Assembly: GCF_015687155.1 (NCBI RefSeq)
Contig: NZ_JADPQF010000004.1
Coordinates: 62,001 to 126,000, forward strand
Direction: 5' to 3'
Source of the DNA: Aliikangiella sp. G2MR2-5
GTDB taxonomy: Bacteria; Pseudomonadota; Gammaproteobacteria; Enterobacterales; Kangiellaceae
Length of the DNA: 64,000 nucleotides
Below are positions 33,326 through 47,474 of this stretch, piece after piece (the stretch's first letter is position 1; each line of letters begins with the position of its first letter). The position numbers were made by a program, and so were the translations under genes. The notes beneath the pieces are model-generated. The model was not told the origin of the DNA. It searched no databases and worked only from the letters and a program-made list of their open reading frames with translations.

Positions 33326-34120
33326 ATGTCCTTTGAAAACAGTGAAATATTGGAGAAATCTCCACTTGCCATTGCTGTCTGTGATAAGTCAGAGCGAGTG
33401 TTATGGTGCAATAATTTGTTTTATGAACAAATGCACCTCTCTTCGGATGAAGTTATCGACAAGCTTTACCCGGCTCTGCCTATTGAAGCGATTAACAAAG
33501 ATGCCAGCCGAGTCCAGCTGTTTTCAGACAAAGCTAACGAAGAAACCCGCTTTCACTACTGGCAAGCACTTTTAGATAAACCAGAAGGCGCCAGGGTCCA
33601 CTATTTCGCAAAAGAAAAGGTAACAAATAAAAGGTTTAGCATCGCCACCAGCAAACTGGATCAGGGAGAGCTTCCCAAACGCTCTAACTGGGTTGAGTTT
33701 CTAAATTATGAAGTGAGCCGGAGTCGTCGCTACGAAAACCCTCTGTCAATTCTAAAGCTTCACCTGGTAGTATTTAACAAACCGGAAACGGTAGCTGAGG
33801 ACACTTTACACGAAACGATCAAAGACACACTGATGGATGAACTCCGCTGGGCTGATATGGTTGGCCATACCGATCACGGAACCTATTTGATGATTCTGCC
33901 AGAAACCCCTGCCGATGCCCTCTGTGTACTAGAGGAAAAATTAAAAAATAGCCTGAAGGCTCGAATTGACTTTATTGGAAGTGATATTCAATATCAACTG
34001 GTTTTCGGTCATGCTCACTGGGTAAAACATGATGATAGTCAGCGCCTGCTACAGCGAGCAAGGGCAGATTTGGTGGAAAAACTGGAAAAACTACTAAGTG
34101 ATAGTAAAAAACCGGGATAA
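33326..34120 (+). CDS. PAS protein with degenerate GGDEF domain
   Basis: 264 aa, cytosolic. The N-terminal PAS-like domain (about 5-110, 'SPLAIAVCDKSERVLWCNNLFYEQM') is followed by a GGDEF-fold domain (about 118-260) that begins with the usual 'WVEFLNYEVSRSRRYENPLSILKLHL'-type helix. The active-site signature is lost: where RxGGDEF should stand there is 'VGHTDHGTYLMILPET'. It cannot be a normal diguanylate cyclase and may act as a c-di-GMP or GTP receptor, or by protein contact. It is divergent from cyaA. Its stop codon lies in the loop of the terminator. Confidence 0.88.
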   Translation: MSFENSEILEKSPLAIAVCDKSERVLWCNNLFYEQMHLSSDEVIDKLYPALPIEAINKDASRVQLFSDKANEETRFHYWQALLDKPEGARVHYFAKEKVTNKRFSIATSKLDQGELPKRSNWVEFLNYEVSRSRRYENPLSILKLHLVVFNKPETVAEDTLHETIKDTLMDELRWADMVGHTDHGTYLMILPETPADALCVLEEKLKNSLKARIDFIGSDIQYQLVFGHAHWVKHDDSQRLLQRARADLVEKLEKLLSDSKKPG

Positions 34121-34132
34121 TCCCGGTTTTTT
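34106..34132. terminator. Bidirectional terminator containing the stop codon of the PAS gene
   Basis: ACCGGGA / TAA / TCCCGGT (34111-34127) flanked by an A run and a T run. The three-base loop is exactly the TAA stop (34118-34120) of the PAS-GGDEF-like gene, and the left arm encodes its last codons. It also serves the converging cytochrome c5 gene. Confidence 0.9.
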
Positions 34133-34155
34133 ATACTAGATGAAAGCTTTTAAGG

Positions 34156-34590
34156 CTATTGGCTATTGGCAACCATATGCTTTACTGCCGCCGCAATTTC
34201 CTCATCGCTACAGTCAGTACAAGTTCCACGTGCCGGCATAAAACCTGTACTTCCCTGAAATCCTTCCAACGCGTGAGAAATCAATACTTCTTCACCTTGA
34301 GCAATACGATCAACCCATACACCTGAGTCGCCAACTTTAGGCGCTCCGGCTACACCAGTACCATGGCAGGCGGCACATTTTTGAGTATAGATATCTTCGC
34401 CGCTTCTTGGTCCAGCAGACTGAGTAGCTGCAACCACTGGAGCCGCTTTAGGTACATCATCACCAACACGATAAACTTTACCTGTAGGCTTGGTTCTTTC
34501 CTTAACTGTATGAGACTTCATATGATCCGCCGATACAGCGCCAGCTAAAGTAACAGCTAAAGCAACTAGAATAACTTTAATTTTTTGCAC
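34156..34590 (-). CDS. Cytochrome c5 family periplasmic protein
   Basis: 144 aa. Signal peptide (about 1-22, VSADH), a variable linker, then one haem c site 'CAACHGTG'. An axial Met lies in 'TGFMPARG', and the Cys pair in 'TCTDCSDEEI' is the disulfide typical of cytochrome c5. It should carry electrons in the periplasm. The start is GTG with GGGAG 7 bases upstream. Confidence 0.92.
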   Translation of the reverse strand: MQKIKVILVALAVTLAGAVSADHMKSHTVKERTKPTGKVYRVGDDVPKAAPVVAATQSAGPRSGEDIYTQKCAACHGTGVAGAPKVGDSGVWVDRIAQGEEVLISHALEGFQGSTGFMPARGTCTDCSDEEIAAAVKHMVANSQ

Positions 34591-37565: not shown

Positions 37566-39185
37566 ATGAAAAAATACAGCTTAAAGTTTATAACACCAAT
37601 AATTGCAATATTTTTTATGCAAAGCTGTGAAACATTTCAGCCAGCCAAAGTTGATAAAATAACATTAGCTGAAAAAGCACTAGCCGAAGCTGAAAAAGAT
37701 CAAAAAAACAGTGTTTCGCAAATCACGCAAAATGAAATTCTTGATTCGTTACTTCCACCAGTATCATTGAATGAAAATTCAACGGATGAAGAAAAGTTCG
37801 ATGTATCGGTAAAAAATATCGACACACGCAGTTTTCTACTAGGTCTGGTAGATGGTACCAGATTCAATATGGTAGTCAGCCCGGAAGTATCCGGTAAAAT
37901 TACGCTGCAACTGAAGAACGTTTCGATAAGTGAAGTCCTGTCATCGATAGAAAGAATATATCCGCTTATGGTAGAAAAAGAGGGGGATATATTCTTTGTT
38001 TCTTCCGCAGAAACTATGACTGCAATTTATCCAGTTAATTATCTAAATATTACTCGATCGGGGAAGTCCACAACAAACGTCGCTGGGCAAGCCGTCGCGC
38101 AAATGAGTCAAGGTTCAAGTAACCGACAATCATCGACAAATCAAAGCCAGTCCGGTGGCAGCAGTATATCTCAAATAAATGCGTCTGAATTAAATACCGT
38201 TTCGAAAACTGATTTTTGGGCTGAGCTGGAAAAGTCATTGACACTGATTATTAAGGATGAAGCAAATGCAAGTGTTGTCGTAAGTCCTCAAGCAGGTATT
38301 GTCATCGTAAGAGCCTTGCCAAGAACGCAAAAGTTAATCGAAGCTTACCTTGGTTCAACTCAGGAAGGTTTAAATAGACAGGTTATTTTAGAGGCAAAAA
38401 TAATCGAAGTTGCTCTTAACGAAGGTTTTCAATCTGGAATCGACTGGCGCAAAATCCGAACATCTTCTAGCGGGAATATACTGACAATTGGTCAATTAGG
38501 ACAGGTACTTGATATAGCAAGTGATGAAGCGCCGATAAATGGTAGTTTTTCGATGCTATATGATAGCAATGATTTTGATGCAGCAATTCAGCTTTTAGAA
38601 ACTCAGGGAGAGGTTCATGTACTCTCCTCTCCGCGAGTATCCACAGTGAATAATCAAAAAGCAATTATAAAAGTCGGAAGTGATGAATTTTTTGTAACCG
38701 ATGTATCCACAACAACTGTGACAGGTACGAGTACGGCAACAACTCCCGATGTGACGCTAACACCATTTTTCTCTGGTATATCTCTGGATGTAACTCCGCA
38801 GATAAATAATAAGGAAGAAATCATTCTTCATATACATCCTGTAGTTAGTGAAGTCGATGATCAACAAAAAACAATTACGCTTGGTCAGGATGAATTTACT
38901 TTACCTCTGGCTCTTTCTAATGTGCGAGAGTCCGATAGCATCGTTAGATCAGAGAATGAACAAGTTATTGTAATCGGTGGGTTAATGCAAACTCGTATTC
39001 AAAAAGAGGAAAGTTCAACTCCAATATTGGGGGATATTCCAGTCCTGGGCCACCTGTTCACCCAGCATAGAGATACCAAGGTAAAAAGTGAATTAGTTAT
39101 TTTGTTAAAGGCAAGTGTAGTCAATGCAGGGACGATGAGTACCGATTTAAGAGAAACCCGAAAAAGATATAAACAGTTCAGGTAA
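37566..39185 (+). CDS. mshL: MSHA secretin lipoprotein MshL
   Basis: 539 aa. Lipoprotein signal ending in the lipobox MQSC (Cys21). N-domains start near residue 80 (STN-like, 'FDVSVKNIDTRSFLLGLVDG'), a Ser/Gln/Asn-rich linker occupies about 175-205, and the C-terminal secretin domain (about 280-525) shows 'EVHVLSSPRVSTVNNQKAIIKVG' and 'VIGGLMQTRIQKEESSTPILGDIPVLGHLF'. It makes the outer-membrane pore through which the pilus leaves the cell. Confidence 0.94.
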   Translation: MKKYSLKFITPIIAIFFMQSCETFQPAKVDKITLAEKALAEAEKDQKNSVSQITQNEILDSLLPPVSLNENSTDEEKFDVSVKNIDTRSFLLGLVDGTRFNMVVSPEVSGKITLQLKNVSISEVLSSIERIYPLMVEKEGDIFFVSSAETMTAIYPVNYLNITRSGKSTTNVAGQAVAQMSQGSSNRQSSTNQSQSGGSSISQINASELNTVSKTDFWAELEKSLTLIIKDEANASVVVSPQAGIVIVRALPRTQKLIEAYLGSTQEGLNRQVILEAKIIEVALNEGFQSGIDWRKIRTSSSGNILTIGQLGQVLDIASDEAPINGSFSMLYDSNDFDAAIQLLETQGEVHVLSSPRVSTVNNQKAIIKVGSDEFFVTDVSTTTVTGTSTATTPDVTLTPFFSGISLDVTPQINNKEEIILHIHPVVSEVDDQQKTITLGQDEFTLPLALSNVRESDSIVRSENEQVIVIGGLMQTRIQKEESSTPILGDIPVLGHLFTQHRDTKVKSELVILLKASVVNAGTMSTDLRETRKRYKQFR

Positions 39186-41217: not shown

Positions 41218-42927
41218 ATGTTACTCAAAAAAGTCAGGCTGGGTGACTTACTTGTTGAAAAATCCGTAATCACCGAGAAGCAATTACAAGACGCACTAAA
41301 CGAGCAGAAAACCAATCGGTTGAGACTTGGTAAATTGCTGGTAAATCTCGGTTACGTTGATGAAAAGCAGCTACTGGAACTCCTGGCAGAGCAGCTGCAA
41401 ATCCAGTTTATTGATCTGGTGCGCTTTAAAATCAACACCGCTGTAGTTGACAAGTTAAGCGAAATGAATGCAAGACGGCTGCGTGCACTGGTTATTGATG
41501 AAAAAGATGATCACTATCTCGTGGTCATGGCTGATCCGACCGATCTGGATAAATACGACGCACTTCAGGAAAAACTAAATAAGCCGGTTAAGCTTTGTGT
41601 AGCGATTGAGTCAGAAATTATCGCTAATATCGACAATTGTTATCGCACTACTAGCGAAATTTCTTCACTGGCAGAAGAGTTAGAAGATGATCTAATCGAT
41701 GACAGTTTTGATTTACCAGGACTGAATGAGAATGTATCTAACGAAGAAGCACCAGTCGCCAAATTACTGCAAACAATTTTCGACCAGGCAATGCAACTTA
41801 AAGCTTCTGATATTCATATTGAGCCCGACGCACGTGTTTTAAGAGTACGAATGCGCGTCGATGGCCATCTTCAAGAACAAGTTATTAAAGAAACTAGAAT
41901 AGTACCTGCACTGGTACTGAGACTTAAACTTATGTGTGGCCTCGATATTTCGGAAAAACGGAAACCCCAGGATGGACGCTTTCGGATTAGAGCAAGAGGG
42001 CATGAAGTCGATATTCGTCTTTCCACCATGCCTGTTCAATACGGAGAATCGGTTGTCATGCGTTTGCTCGACCAAAGTGGAGGCTTATTAAAACTGGAGC
42101 AAACAGGAATAGAGCCCAAGATATTGCGTGAAATTAGAAAATTGCTCGCTTATCCTCATGGTCTGATTCTAGTAACAGGTCCTACCGGAAGCGGTAAAAC
42201 AACTACACTTTATGCGGCTTTGTCTGAGCTTAATTCTCCAGAGAAGAAAATTATCACGATAGAAGATCCGGTGGAATATAAGCTCGCCCGAGTTAATCAG
42301 GTTCAGGTGAATCCAAAAATTGAACTTACATTTGCGTCAGTTTTAAGAGCAGTACTCAGACAAGATCCTGATATCATTCTAGTAGGTGAAATGCGCGATC
42401 AGGAAACCGCTGAAATTGGACTGCGAGCAGCTGTTACCGGCCATCTGGTTTTATCCACTTTGCATACAAATGATACCCTGTCTGCAGCTATCCGTCTTGC
42501 GGATATGGGTGCGGAAAGCTATTTGCTCGCCAGTGGATTAAGGGGAGTGATTGCACAGCGGTTAGTTAGAAGAATTTGTAGTTTCTGTTCAGAGGATTAT
42601 AAGCCGAATGAAAGTGAGCTTAACTGGTTGGCTAAGGAAAGTGATAAGGTTAGCGATAACACCCAATGGAAAAAAGGGAAAGGCTGTACCCAGTGCCACA
42701 ATACCGGTTATCTAGGACGCGCAGCAATCTTTGAGATCCTGCTTCCAAACCATGAAATGCTAGATGCGATTCGGCGCAAAGACTATTCAAGTTTCTCAAA
42801 AGCGGCACGTCGTTCCGAATTTTTTACGCCCTTAAGTGAGTCCGCAATAAACCTTGCCCTCGATGGAATTACCAGTGTTGAAGAGGTGTTAAGAGTTTGT
42901 GAATCTATTGAAGGCTTGGAGGAATAA
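41218..42927 (+). CDS. mshE: MSHA pilus extension ATPase MshE
   Basis: 569 aa GspE/PilB family hexameric ATPase. The N-terminus carries two tandem MshEN motifs ('VRLGDLLVEKSVITEKQLQDAL' and 'RLGKLLVNLGYVDEKQLLELL'), a fold shown in V. cholerae MshE to bind c-di-GMP. Walker A is 'GPTGSGKT' (321-328), Asp box 'IITIEDPVEY', Walker B 'DPDIILVGEMRD', His box 'AAVTGHLVLSTLHTND', and the zinc tetracysteine is 'CSFCSEDY...CTQCHNTG'. It drives pilin addition, probably only when c-di-GMP is bound. Confidence 0.96.
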   Translation: MLLKKVRLGDLLVEKSVITEKQLQDALNEQKTNRLRLGKLLVNLGYVDEKQLLELLAEQLQIQFIDLVRFKINTAVVDKLSEMNARRLRALVIDEKDDHYLVVMADPTDLDKYDALQEKLNKPVKLCVAIESEIIANIDNCYRTTSEISSLAEELEDDLIDDSFDLPGLNENVSNEEAPVAKLLQTIFDQAMQLKASDIHIEPDARVLRVRMRVDGHLQEQVIKETRIVPALVLRLKLMCGLDISEKRKPQDGRFRIRARGHEVDIRLSTMPVQYGESVVMRLLDQSGGLLKLEQTGIEPKILREIRKLLAYPHGLILVTGPTGSGKTTTLYAALSELNSPEKKIITIEDPVEYKLARVNQVQVNPKIELTFASVLRAVLRQDPDIILVGEMRDQETAEIGLRAAVTGHLVLSTLHTNDTLSAAIRLADMGAESYLLASGLRGVIAQRLVRRICSFCSEDYKPNESELNWLAKESDKVSDNTQWKKGKGCTQCHNTGYLGRAAIFEILLPNHEMLDAIRRKDYSSFSKAARRSEFFTPLSESAINLALDGITSVEEVLRVCESIEGLEE

Positions 42928-44160
42928 TTGGCAACATTTGACTACCGGGCCAAAAATAGCCGGGGGGACGAAATAAGTGGAACCATTGATGCGCCGAGTC
43001 GTGAAGCTGTTGCCGAACGATTAATGGGACGCGGAACTATTCCTGTCGCCATCAAAGAAGCCTCGAATAAAACATCCGGACTCGATATAGATGTTGCCAG
43101 CTTCTTTCAGTCAAAACGAGTTAAAATTGATGACCTGGTTATGTTTAGTCGCCAGATGTATAGTTTAACTCGCGCAGGAATTCCTTTAACCCGAGCTATT
43201 AGCGGGCTTCTGGAAACAACTAATTCGAAAGTACTTAAAACTGCGCTCGAAGAGATCTTTAATGACCTCAATGCTGGTACAAATTTAGCGACCGCTTTTT
43301 CTCGGCATGAACATATCTTTTCACCACTCTATATTAGTCTGATTCATGTAGGTGAAAATTCGGGGCGCCTGGAAGAGTCATTTCAACAGATAGCGAACTA
43401 CCTCGAGCTGGAACAAAAAACTCGCCAAAGAATCAAATCTGCTACTCGTTACCCAACTTTCGTTGTGTTTGCGATAATCGCTGCAATTGTCATTATCAAT
43501 ATCTGGGTTATTCCAAGTTTCAAACAACTCTTTGCCAGCTTTAATGCTGGAGAGTTACCGCTACCAACTCAGATACTCATGGCTACCAGTGACTTTTTTC
43601 TTAATTATGGCTTGTTTTTACTGGTCGGTATTGTCCTGGGGGTAATCGGCTTTATGCGCTTTATCAAAACGCCTGATGGCAAGTTCTGGTGGGACAAGAT
43701 TAAACTTAAGATTCCAATATTCGGAGACATCATTTACCGGGCATTGCTTGCCCGGTTTGCGCGAACTTTTGCCATGATGAGCCGTTCAGGTGTTCCCTTA
43801 ATCAATTCACTTAATATTGTCTCAGAGGTGGTAGATAACGCCTGGGTTGCTTCACATATACAGGATATGAGAGGAGGAGTCGAAAAAGGTGAATCCATAA
43901 AAAACGTTGCGGTGCGCAGTAAAATGTTTTCCGGACTGACTATTCAAATGATATCGGTCGGTGAGGAAACCGGGCAACTAGATGAAATGCTTGATGAAGT
44001 AGCAATTTTTTATGAGGAACAGGTTGATTACGATTTAAAAAAGCTATCTGATTATATAGAGCCCGCACTTATCGTTTTTATCGGTGCAATTGTTCTGGTG
44101 CTGATGCTAGCGGTTTATCTGCCAATGTGGGAATTAACCAGTCGGGTGCGAGGTGGCTAG
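42928..44160 (+). CDS. mshG: MSHA inner-membrane platform protein MshG
   Basis: 410 aa GspF/PilC family. TTG start directly after the mshE stop, with a GGAGGA site inside the mshE end. Two T2SSF domains (about 70-195 and 270-395) with three membrane helices (near 170, 225 and 375, the last 'IVFIGAIVLVLMLAVYLPMW'). Works with MshE to lift pilins from the membrane into the fibre. Confidence 0.94.
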   Translation: MATFDYRAKNSRGDEISGTIDAPSREAVAERLMGRGTIPVAIKEASNKTSGLDIDVASFFQSKRVKIDDLVMFSRQMYSLTRAGIPLTRAISGLLETTNSKVLKTALEEIFNDLNAGTNLATAFSRHEHIFSPLYISLIHVGENSGRLEESFQQIANYLELEQKTRQRIKSATRYPTFVVFAIIAAIVIINIWVIPSFKQLFASFNAGELPLPTQILMATSDFFLNYGLFLLVGIVLGVIGFMRFIKTPDGKFWWDKIKLKIPIFGDIIYRALLARFARTFAMMSRSGVPLINSLNIVSEVVDNAWVASHIQDMRGGVEKGESIKNVAVRSKMFSGLTIQMISVGEETGQLDEMLDEVAIFYEEQVDYDLKKLSDYIEPALIVFIGAIVLVLMLAVYLPMWELTSRVRGG

Positions 44161-44712: not shown

Positions 44713-44742
44713 TTGTCTACACTTTTACTAGATTCAAATAAT
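44713..44742 (+). promoter_or_regulatory. Candidate internal promoter for the major pilin
   Basis: TTGTCT (44713-44718), 18 bases, AATAAT (44737-44742), in the only sizeable gap (85 bases) of the MSHA operon, directly before the pilin gene. A separate strong promoter here is typical of major pilin genes; the match is moderate. Confidence 0.4.
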
Positions 44743-44774: not shown

Positions 44775-45239
44775 GTGAAATTTAGTACTCGCTCCAGTCA
44801 AGGTTTTACCTTGATCGAATTAATCGTCGTAATAGTTATTCTGGGTATCATGGCTGCAATTGCAGGCCCAAAATTTATCGATTTGCAAACGGAAGCAAGG
44901 TTATCGGTAATGAGTGGGGTAGAAGGCGCGGTGAGAAGCACTGCTACACTGGTCTACTCAAAATCGTTAATTGAAGGAGAAGAAAGCATCGATGAAGCCA
45001 GTGCTCCGGCAGTTGATGTTGCAGGCGGAACTGTTACAACTCACTTTGGATATCCGAATGCGGAAAATACCGGTTTAATTGCTGGAATGGACCTCGAAGG
45101 AGATATTGTTGTTACTCATCCTGATGAAAATACCACTGTATTTACTTATAGTAGTCTGACCAATTGCAATGTAACTTATGTGGAATCAGCCAGTGATGGT
45201 GCTGCACCAACAATTACAACGACCACTACAGACTGCTAA
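44775..45239 (+). CDS. mshA: MSHA major pilin, MshA-like
   Basis: 154 aa, GTG start with GGAGA 7 bases upstream. Prepilin leader of 10 residues ending in Gly, cleaved before Phe in 'SQGFTLIELIVVIVILGIMAA' (Glu+5 present). The mature type IVa pilin head has a C-terminal Cys pair (TNCNVTY ... TTTTTDC) that frames a disulfide loop, and a Thr-rich end. Only one such gene is present, where Vibrio has mshB and mshA; the choice of name follows size and position. Confidence 0.85.
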   Translation: MKFSTRSSQGFTLIELIVVIVILGIMAAIAGPKFIDLQTEARLSVMSGVEGAVRSTATLVYSKSLIEGEESIDEASAPAVDVAGGTVTTHFGYPNAENTGLIAGMDLEGDIVVTHPDENTTVFTYSSLTNCNVTYVESASDGAAPTITTTTTDC

Positions 45240-45259
45240 ACCAGTTAGACATTTCTCTA

Positions 45260-45288
45260 AAATGCCGCCCTCCTTGTGTGCGGCATTT
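45260..45288 (+). promoter_or_regulatory. Strong hairpin covering the mshC-like start codon
   Basis: AAATGCCGC / 11-base loop / GCGGCATTT makes a perfect 9-bp stem 20 bases after the pilin stop. The left arm contains the ATG (45262) of the next gene. There is no T run after it, so it is less likely a plain terminator than an mRNA end-stabiliser or a translation block. Confidence 0.6.
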
Positions 45289-45687
45289 ACGCTTCTAGAA
45301 CTCATCATTGTTATTGTTATTCTTGCGATTCTAGCCATATTCGTGCAGTCTAAATTTCAGGATGATAATTCCTACCAACTCGACGCAGCGGTTGAACAGA
45401 TCATTTCTACCGCCAGGCTGGCACAGCAATTTTCGATGAATGACAACAGTCGCAACTTTGTATTAAGCATTCAGGCCAGCCAGGTTGACATTCTAGCTGA
45501 TGGAATTTCCCTTTCCGGCCAACTTCCGAACCTGCCTGTAAATTTTTCCAGTGATATATCCCTCTCTCCTGCGCAATTAATTTCTTTTGATGGAATGGGA
45601 AGTACAGGAAGCCAAACACTGATAGTCAGCGCAAAGTCTAGTATCAATATCTGTTTTGAAGCGAGCGGGATGATACATCGATGTTAG
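45262..45687 (+). CDS. mshC: MSHA minor pilin, MshC-like
   Basis: 141 aa from the ATG at 45262. A prepilin N-terminus 'AFTLLELIIVIVILAILAIF' is clear (Glu+5), but the residue before the cleavage Phe is Ala, not Gly, and the leader (MPPSLCAA) has no Lys or Arg. No good ribosome binding site is seen and the start lies in a hairpin. The frame stays open upstream to 45178 inside the pilin gene, so a longer leader is possible. Head domain about 120 residues with Cys in 'INICFEASG'. Overlaps the next gene by 7 bases. Confidence 0.75.
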   Translation: MPPSLCAAFTLLELIIVIVILAILAIFVQSKFQDDNSYQLDAAVEQIISTARLAQQFSMNDNSRNFVLSIQASQVDILADGISLSGQLPNLPVNFSSDISLSPAQLISFDGMGSTGSQTLIVSAKSSINICFEASGMIHRC

Positions 45688-46214
45688 TTTTTGAATCCAA
45701 TAGCTTTGGAAATCATCGAGGCTATTCGCTTATCGAACTAGTTATAACCATTGTCCTTACCAGTATTGTTGTAGTTGTATTTCTAACCCTGTTTAGCTCT
45801 ATACAAAGAAGTTCGGTTGAACCTGTTTTTCAAATCAAAGCAGCAGAGTTGGGACAGGCAGTGCTGGAGGAAATCAGTTTAAAAAATTTTGATGAAAACT
45901 CTCCAGCAGGAAATGCCCGACGCTGTAACGATTCAGGAGCGCCATCATGTACTTCTACTCCTGGTCCAGATTCAGGAGAAACCAGAGAAACCTATGATGA
46001 TATCGACGATTACCACGGTATCAACCAATCCCCACCGGAAGATGCCTTGGGGAATCCACAAATAGGCTATGCTTCTTACTCTCTATCTGTCGCAGTCAAC
46101 TATGCTGGAGACGACCTGGCTCTGCCAACCCAGTCAATTAAAAGAATTCAGGTTACTATCACAGCTCCTGATAATACCCAGTATATTTTCAGTGAATACA
46201 AGGGGAATTATTGA
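45681..46214 (+). CDS. mshD: MSHA minor pilin, MshD-like
   Basis: 177 aa. Prepilin site Gly before Tyr in 'NHRGYSLIELVITIVL', Glu+5 present. The head has a Cys-containing loop (ARRCNDSGAPSCTSTPG) as in MshD. Probably a tip or priming subunit. TGATG overlap with the next gene. Confidence 0.85.
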   Translation: MLVFESNSFGNHRGYSLIELVITIVLTSIVVVVFLTLFSSIQRSSVEPVFQIKAAELGQAVLEEISLKNFDENSPAGNARRCNDSGAPSCTSTPGPDSGETRETYDDIDDYHGINQSPPEDALGNPQIGYASYSLSVAVNYAGDDLALPTQSIKRIQVTITAPDNTQYIFSEYKGNY

Positions 46215-47044
46215 TGATTTTTTTAGGCTCAATTAAAAATCTGAAATCGTTTCCAAAACACAAAGGGTTTACCTTATTCGAGCTAATCATTGTAATCGTT
46301 CTAATCGGCATTCTGGCTATTTCACTGGGAAAAATCAGCAGTGTTTCCGTGTATAGCTATATCGATGCGAAAGATCGCAACCGTATGAGCCACGAAGCTC
46401 GCTGGATAATCGAGCGCATTGCGCGCGAAGCTAGAAATGCTATGGCACAAAGTATTCGAACCGGAAACAATCTCGGTGTCGACTGCGTAGAGTTTATGCC
46501 TATCAGTAATGCTTCAATTTCTACTAATTTACCCGCAAGTGGCAGCATATCTGACTTTAACGCAGTCGCTTACAATTTAAGCTTTCAAGCCAATACTTAT
46601 GTTGCAATTATGCCACTAACCGCTAGTTCTGTTTATGCGATAAACGGAGTACTAGCACCAATCGCTTCAGTTGCAACTACAGGCAATGAGTCTACGATTA
46701 CCTTAAGCTCACCAAGTAATTTTACCCATCGCTCTCCAGAGAACCGTTTTCTTATCGTTTCTCGCCCTGTTTCTTTTTGTCTGGATACTTCCAGTGGCCA
46801 ACTTTCAAGATATGAAGGTTATAATATCAATCAAGTCCAGCAAATCCCGCCAAGTATTAGCGGTGAATTAATTGCGGATAATCTTTCCAGTGGTACCGGT
46901 ATGTTCAGTTATCAACCTGGCGTACTCAGTCGCTCGGGGATTTTACAAATAAACTTCAGACTACAAAATTCAACAAGAAACCTAAGCGGCAATAGCGAAG
47001 CATTTGAATATTTTCACGAGGTACATATTCGAAATGTTCCCTAG
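46214..47044 (+). CDS. mshO: MSHA minor pilin, MshO-like
   Basis: 276 aa from the ATG at 46214 (AGGGGA 7 bases upstream, sharing a base with the mshD stop). Basic leader and prepilin site 'KHKGFTLFELIIVIVLIG'. It is the largest of the pilin-like proteins, as MshO is in Vibrio and Shewanella, with a beta-rich head. Likely part of the tip complex. Confidence 0.85.
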   Translation: MIFLGSIKNLKSFPKHKGFTLFELIIVIVLIGILAISLGKISSVSVYSYIDAKDRNRMSHEARWIIERIAREARNAMAQSIRTGNNLGVDCVEFMPISNASISTNLPASGSISDFNAVAYNLSFQANTYVAIMPLTASSVYAINGVLAPIASVATTGNESTITLSSPSNFTHRSPENRFLIVSRPVSFCLDTSSGQLSRYEGYNINQVQQIPPSISGELIADNLSSGTGMFSYQPGVLSRSGILQINFRLQNSTRNLSGNSEAFEYFHEVHIRNVP

Positions 47045-47474
47045 TAACCATTTTAAGTTTTCGAATCATCTCGCACCAAATCCAAAATACCAGCGAGGAA
47101 TAAGCCTTGCTATGTTGTTATTTATCATTGTGATTCTCGGTTTACTTGCAGCAACATTGGTATCCCTGAATAGTTTATCGACACAAGCAAACGCCCACCA
47201 GGTGATTTCAACCCGGGCTTTTTTAGCGGCAAAGTCTGGAGCAGACTACATGGCGATGCGTGTTTTTCCGCAAAGTGGCGCATCCAGCTGCGGCAATACG
47301 ACTTTAAATTTTACAACCAACGGGTTAAACGGTTGCTCAGCCAGTATTACCTGTACTGCAATACCTGTTGGCAGCAATAATTATTACCAGATTTTAAGTA
47401 ATGGAGTTTGCAATGCTGGACAAACCTTTCAAGCCAGTCGTACCATTGAGATGCGTCTTAAACCGATCCGTTAA
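47034..47474 (+). CDS. mshP: MshP-like pilin-like protein
   Basis: 146 aa from the ATG at 47034, overlapping mshO by 11 bases; GAGG lies 12 bases upstream. Leader 'PKYQRGISLAMLLFIIVILG' with Gly before Ile and no Glu+5, the PilX/MshP type. Two Cys pairs in the short head (SSCGNTT, NGCSASITC). Last gene of the operon: no mshQ follows. Confidence 0.85.
   Translation: MFPSNHFKFSNHLAPNPKYQRGISLAMLLFIIVILGLLAATLVSLNSLSTQANAHQVISTRAFLAAKSGADYMAMRVFPQSGASSCGNTTLNFTTNGLNGCSASITCTAIPVGSNNYYQILSNGVCNAGQTFQASRTIEMRLKPIR

Follow-up and report, generated by a model that had tools for sequence, protein, structure and literature searches.

A terminator-like stem in the MshC prepilin leader codons of Kangiellaceae as a putative determinant of minor pilin dose

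Introduction

A pilus is generally expected to require its major pilin in high dose and its minor pilins in low dose, and the genes for both are presumed to belong to a single transcription unit. How, then, might one transcription unit yield far more of the major pilin than of the minor ones? The question arises at an MSHA locus in the 64-kb stretch of DNA analyzed here as a whole (hereafter, the window), in which a hairpin separates the gene for the major pilin, mshA, from those for the minor pilins. A preliminary description of this hairpin noted that it locks the start codon of mshC, the next gene, and proposed that it may set the ratio between major and minor pilins, either by transcript processing or by a translation block that is opened by ribosomes finishing mshA. 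Here we describe the hairpin, its counterparts in related genomes, and the readings that these comparisons favor.

Results

The MSHA locus and its gene names

An MshL secretin and an MshE-type c-di-GMP domain, both above the cut-offs of their models, identify the locus as MSHA (Table 1). In the profile search, the pilins of the window exceeded cut-offs solely for general prepilin motifs; since no specific family model was matched above its cut-off, the names mshA and mshC are based on gene order together with the N-methylation motif. The sequence CTACACTT upstream of mshA is found exactly in 5 of 11 aligned genomes and partially in 5 more, and it is a possible promoter -10 element. In a promoter scan, whose raw scores are uncorrected for base composition, the best values were ~8-10 in the region before mshA and ~6-9.5 in that before the stem. 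Elsewhere in the window, a stem of 12 bp flanked by A and T (34105-34133) lies between the convergent genes 33326-34120 (+) and 34156-34590 (-), and it is likely an ordinary two-way terminator.

Table 1. Positions in the window of the MSHA genes and of the elements around the mshA-mshC junction
Feature	Position	Strand	Evidence
mshL secretin, marks the locus as MSHA	37566..39185	+	TIGR02519, 263 bits (cut-off 250.2)
mshE-like ATPase with MshE-type c-di-GMP domain	41218..42927	+	NF053729, 69.5 bits (cut-off 38)
mshG-like gene, query for finding relatives	42928..44160	+	homology search
CTACACTT, candidate -10 region of the mshA promoter	44717..44724	+	conservation
mshA-like major pilin gene, 154 aa	44775..45239	+	prepilin motif, gene order
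Alternative in-frame starts (GTG, ATG, GTG) inside mshA, leader of 29-31 residues	45193..45201	+	start scan
Ungapped block against 16 relatives: stem and Phe-Thr-Leu-Leu-Glu codons (U-rich tail in relatives)	45256..45306	+	alignment
Hairpin, 9 perfect pairs, 11-nt loop, overlapping mshC-like leader codons	45260..45288	+	fold, compensatory changes in relatives
ATG in left arm; Lys codon AAG in most relatives	45262..45264	+	alignment
mshC-like minor pilin gene, start uncertain; cleavage site Ala/Phe, not Gly/Phe	45262..45687	+	prepilin motif, gene order
mshD-like minor pilin gene	45681..46214	+	prepilin motif, gene order
mshO-like minor pilin gene	46211..47044	+	prepilin motif, gene order
mshP-like gene	47004..47474	+	position alone; no family match

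The hairpin in the window

The two arms of the hairpin (45260-45268 and 45280-45288) are 100% complementary over their 9 bp, and the hairpin begins 20 nt downstream of the mshA stop codon (45237-45239), after a short stretch that, judged by eye, is apparently unconserved. The ATG of the mshC-like frame falls within the left arm. The segment 45258-45290 folds at -13.5 kcal/mol (z -5.19), a stability reached in 0 of 200 shuffles, and folds with wider flanks gave z scores of -3.47 and -2.26. In the 64-kb window, 3 perfect stems were counted (at least 9 bp, a loop of 3-12 nt, and at least 5 G-C pairs), compared with 0, 1, 0, 0, 1, 0, 0, and 0 in 8 dinucleotide shuffles. The stem is followed by ACGCTTCT (past the G-C core, ATTTACGC), with no real T run; the hairpin does not appear in the list of terminators predicted for the window, and its terminator score is negative. 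In addition, an Rfam scan of the window returned no family at gathering score, and thus no match to a riboswitch or translational attenuator family.

No ribosome-binding site was detected at ATG 45262 (duplex energy +0.2). The leader that would start there, MPPSLCAA, is devoid of basic residues, and the in-frame starts at 45193, 45196, and 45199, which overlap mshA, have better ribosome-site energies (-3.3). Given these overlapping starts, ATG 45262 may not be the true start of mshC. Thus, the preliminary description was accurate as to the perfect 9-bp hairpin, its position exactly between the major and the minor pilins, the ATG in its left arm, and the missing T run; its claim that the next gene has no ribosome-binding site holds at the stem ATG.

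The stem is shared by MSHA-bearing Kangiellaceae and a second family

Relatives were collected with the MshG query (E <= 1e-100), and an MSHA locus was found in 17 of 40 Kangiellaceae genomes, that of the window (G000) included. All 17 have a stem at the mshA-mshC junction, with a G-C core that ends at the Ala codon before the prepilin cleavage site; hence the sister species do carry the stem on whose presence there the preliminary description had let its reading depend. The stem typically reads AAG CCG CCn nnn nnn CAG GCG GCT TTT, i.e., Lys-Pro-Pro-x-x-Gln-Ala-Ala-Phe, and the loop is shorter by one codon in G004 and G011. In a second family, represented by three genomes, the stem recurs in the same register in two (G049 and G065), and none was seen at the mshA-mshC junction of the third (G064). 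The 16 other Kangiellaceae together with G049 and G065 are referred to below as the 18 relatives. Aliikangiella marina hosts the MSHA locus twice on one contig (L116 and L117), 59 kb apart and with equal MshG scores, which may be a real duplication or an assembly artefact; one of the two copies was used in our counts.

A covariance model (R1) matched 31 of 394 genomes at E <= 0.01, most of them by construction, since it was built from 17 of the stem sequences. Matches located precisely at the mshA/mshC stem occurred in 18 genomes (E <= 9.7e-4), and outside the training set G011 was recovered and G004 was missed. The remaining 13 genomes had weak matches alone (E 0.0018 or more).

Pairing is maintained beyond the coding requirement

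Among 17 gap-free sequences, changes on both sides were found in 7 of 11 pairs (14 cells in total, a count that overstates independent events because the genomes share ancestry). Paired cells amounted to 89.3%, compared with 80.1% after shuffling, and the covariation score was 0.245 as opposed to 0.085, and none of these values was reached in 500 shuffles; when the structure was slid along the alignment, pairing and covariation fell far below those of the real register. A repeat of the covariation analysis on 19 sequences had a similar outcome. RNAalifold, unaided, recovered the stem with 8 pairs, 5 of which have both-side changes. By eye, six or more distinct double changes can be counted, namely, in columns 8-30 (window), 12-26 (G008), 13-25 (G018), 11-27 (second family), and 14-24 (differing between G049 and G065).

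The stem was also compared with synonymous recodings of the same peptides at each genome's own codon usage. The observed mean was 9.7 pairs versus 6.0 for the recodings, with all 19 genomes lying above their recodings (each p <= 0.05); the window was the weakest of the 19 (p 0.049 for pairs and 0.016 for energy). Core cells (columns 8-14) comprise 128 Watson-Crick pairs, 3 G-U pairs, no A-C mismatch, and 2 others, and edge cells (columns 6-7 and 15-16) comprise 52 Watson-Crick pairs, 2 G-U pairs, 6 A-C mismatches, and 14 other mismatches. The core of the stem is therefore kept and its edges are loose, and a core with G-U pairs but without A-C mismatches fits an RNA of the + strand. Collectively, the conserved position, the compensatory changes, and the pairing beyond what the amino acids require indicate that the stem is not a product of chance.

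The start codon and the cleavage site of mshC

In the 18 relatives, the nearest usable candidate mshC start (i.e., one whose leader would exceed 3 residues) precedes the stem core by 8-38 nt, and by 8-26 nt in 16 of them; G008 and G011 have an additional start codon further in, where the leaders would be 2 and 3 residues long. In the window, ATG has replaced the Lys codon AAG, and GCA the paired Ala codon GCT, so that a U-A pair stands in place of A-U. This change retained the stem, created an ATG inside it, and cost one T of the run. An ATG within the stem thus appears to be peculiar to the species of the window, with usable starts located upstream elsewhere.

The residue at position -1 of the cleavage site is Ala in all 17 MshC proteins of Kangiellaceae, compared with 0 of 17 for MshA, 2 for MshD, and 3 for MshO. 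Among the remaining mshC genes (48 from other families and that of G064), it is Ala in 4 of 49. The right arm, read in frame (GCG GCT), encodes Ala-Ala, and the RNA stem may thus account for the Ala of MshC.

The stem has the form of a terminator in the relatives

An intrinsic terminator requires a G-C-rich stem-loop with a U run directly after it. Such a stem-loop is present in the window and in the 18 relatives, and TTTT or TTT directly follows the G-C core in all 18 (i.e., 16 of 16 other MSHA-bearing Kangiellaceae, G049, and G065), but not in the window. We therefore do not class the copy in the window as a terminator, and we refer to the family element as terminator-like. The terminator score was positive in all 18 relatives (9.7 to 56.6) and at best -9.5 in the window. 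The U run of the relatives is made of the Phe-Thr/Ser-Leu codons of the pilin motif, after the cleavage site, and it may be largely borrowed from that motif. In the 15 nt past the cleavage site, the mean T count is 7.2 in mshC versus 6.7 in mshA, 6.1 in mshD, and 6.5 in mshO; mshC is above the mean of the other three pilins in 14 of 17 genomes, by a small excess.

A fixed terminator criterion was applied to the pilin junctions, with mshC taken as the third pilin counted from the end of the cluster. By this criterion, a terminator was found at the mshC junction in 16 of 17 Kangiellaceae (the window being the exception; shuffled expectation, 0.10) and in 2 of the 3 second-family genomes (shuffled expectation, 0.15), and none was found at the C/D or the D/O junction in any of these 17 and 3 genomes. 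The element is thus placed where a terminator that controls stoichiometry would be expected, at mshA/mshC and not at the next two pilin junctions.

The same junction in other families and in a second pilin system

From the MshG-matching genomes of other families, 51 were picked by hand, one to several per genus; three with too few pilins were dropped, as were two C/D junctions beyond the distance limits. A spacer terminator was found at mshA-mshC in 22 of the 48 usable genomes (shuffled expectation, 0.25; median terminator score, 34), with the other 26 having none by the same criterion, and at the next junctions in 1 of 46 (C/D) and 0 of 48 (D/O). Among the named records from other families, which partly duplicate organisms of the 48-genome set, 25 of 57 usable loci (67 in total) had a terminator. 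Terminators are not wholly confined to the junction into mshC: an earlier form of the rule placed one at 6 of 42 junctions into the last mshA, in several cases between copies of mshA.

A stem that reaches the final codon ahead of the cleavage site was found, among the genomes tested at mshA/mshC, solely in Kangiellaceae and the second family. Elsewhere, the stem at this junction ends 26 or more nt before the cleavage site, or 18 nt before it in two Alteromonas species. The latter (A. facilis and A. flava; L150 and L178) have a strong terminator-like stem with TTTTTGAT, and a TTG start could fall within the U run. The sole C/D terminator-like stem, that of Rheinheimera texasensis (L175/G090), lies within the downstream leader and ends at the cleavage site. 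At the gspG/gspH junction of the T2SS, an in-frame terminator-like stem was found in 2 of 31 usable Kangiellaceae junctions (from 41 gspG places), with the stems at the cleavage site of gspH, a minor pseudopilin gene, in L245 (G013) and L229 (G001); at this junction, the in-frame stem is sporadic.

Discussion

Given its placement and form, we consider it probable that the hairpin in the window is a copy of a family-wide partial transcription terminator (attenuator) that sets the minor pilins below the major one. Kangiellaceae would have a partially effective intrinsic (Rho-independent) terminator behind mshA, with the MshC prepilin leader codons (typically Lys-Pro-Pro-x-x-Gln-Ala-Ala) forming its stem and the Phe-Thr/Ser-Leu codons its U run. 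The majority of RNA polymerases would stop at the stem and leave an RNA with mshA only, and the remaining ones would read through into mshC, mshD, mshO, and mshP, resulting in many major and few minor pilins. We infer that polymerase stops here, that it does so in part, and that the pilin ratio is the purpose. Since the stem overlaps mshC, expression of mshC would require either read-through or a promoter inside mshA, and because the U run in the window is weak, termination is probably weaker in the species of the window than in its relatives. As to the preliminary description, its stem is real, selected, and located at the boundary between major and minor pilins, but a start codon locked in the stem finds no support as a general mechanism: the 18 relatives start mshC upstream and continue from the stem into T runs that the window lacks, so that the conserved feature looks like a terminator.

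Two other readings were considered. A stem that hides the mshC start region until ribosomes completing mshA open it would agree with the ATG inside the stem and the missing ribosome-binding site in the window, and the nearest starts of the relatives are close enough to the core for an initiating ribosome presumably to compete with it. Such a translation block is nonetheless quite unlikely: the start position varies while the stem and its register are nearly constant, and the block needs neither the T run that follows the stem in every relative nor a stem in the spacer, where other families have comparable stems, often with longer T runs. Alternatively, once the transcript has been cleaved, the stem could mark or shield the 3' end of the mshA mRNA and let mshA RNA outlive mshC RNA. 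Selection is indeed clear on the stem and at most slight on the U run, the window retains the former and has lost the latter, and the stems of terminators can also shield 3' ends. Still, processing or protection is distinctly improbable, given that a T run immediately follows the core in each of the 18 relatives and that 22 of 48 genomes from other families have spacer terminators. The translation block and RNA processing are both least improbable in the species of the window.

It is very hard to sustain that the pairing is incidental to a peptide, Lys-Pro-Pro-x-x-Gln-Ala-Ala, retained for leader function. Most Kangiellaceae do share this peptide, and all four pilin genes have U-rich codons past the cleavage site, but synonymous recodings pair less in every one of the 19 genomes, and the stem persists where the peptide changes (Ala to Val in G008, accompanied by CCG to CCA, and Pro-Ala to Phe-Thr in G018) and with the quite different leaders of G004, G049, and G065. 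A further reading concerns the species of the window alone and is compatible with partial termination in the family, namely, that its hairpin is a functionless, decaying relic of the family terminator. This would accord with its negative terminator score, as opposed to the positive ones of all 18 relatives, and with its last place in the recoding test; we nevertheless regard it as rather improbable, since the A-U pair was changed to U-A on both sides and is still paired, which a relic would not need.

Partial termination might also be sensitive to translation. A ribosome moving without delay from the end of mshA to the start of mshC would cover the left arm and let polymerase pass; otherwise the stem would form, transcription would stop, and the mshC start would be covered. 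This dual-coded attenuator is speculative and, in our estimate, unlikely; if it operates, the dose of minor pilins would depend on the supply of ribosomes, and Ala would have been imposed by the RNA stem, in place of Gly, at the prepilin cleavage site. More broadly, partial termination would offer a testable answer, at the level of sequence, to how one transcription unit could yield so much more major than minor pilin, and the locus would clearly illustrate how the same codons can carry both an RNA signal and a protein targeting signal, in which the RNA apparently favors certain residues at a protease cleavage site.

Comparable arrangements are known. In fimbrial operons such as pap, stem-loops lie behind the major-subunit genes and mRNA stability differs after processing, so that the ratio of major to minor subunits is set at the RNA level, as we propose for MSHA. 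The spacer terminators after mshA in, e.g., Aeromonas, Agarivorans, and Aliivibrio species occupy the same junction as the Kangiellaceae stem and have the same predicted effect, but they reside in the spacer and often have longer T runs, whereas the stem of Kangiellaceae, G049, and G065 extends up to the codon that immediately precedes the cleavage site. A search of the open-access literature on MSHA and pilin terminators and on terminators overlapping the next gene found no report of the mshA/mshC element. ABC-importer operons of cellulolytic Clostridia contain internal intrinsic terminators, many with few U residues, that stop part of transcription and set the gene ratio (PMC9045158). They resemble the MSHA element in that a stem-loop separates a gene whose product is needed in excess from genes of lower dose; the clostridial stem-loops came from a search of long intergenic regions, whereas in Kangiellaceae the downstream gene's own codons make up the stem and the U run, which evolve under dual constraint. 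Partial termination was measured in Clostridia (PMC9045158), whereas we infer it from sequence in the MSHA locus. In operons of an archaeon, internal termination has been tied to unequal expression of neighboring genes; there it is linked to the factor aCPSF1, with no comparable hairpin described in the portion of the source used here, unlike the MSHA stem (PMC10450193). What is new relative to the known internal terminators is the overlap with the downstream prepilin leader.
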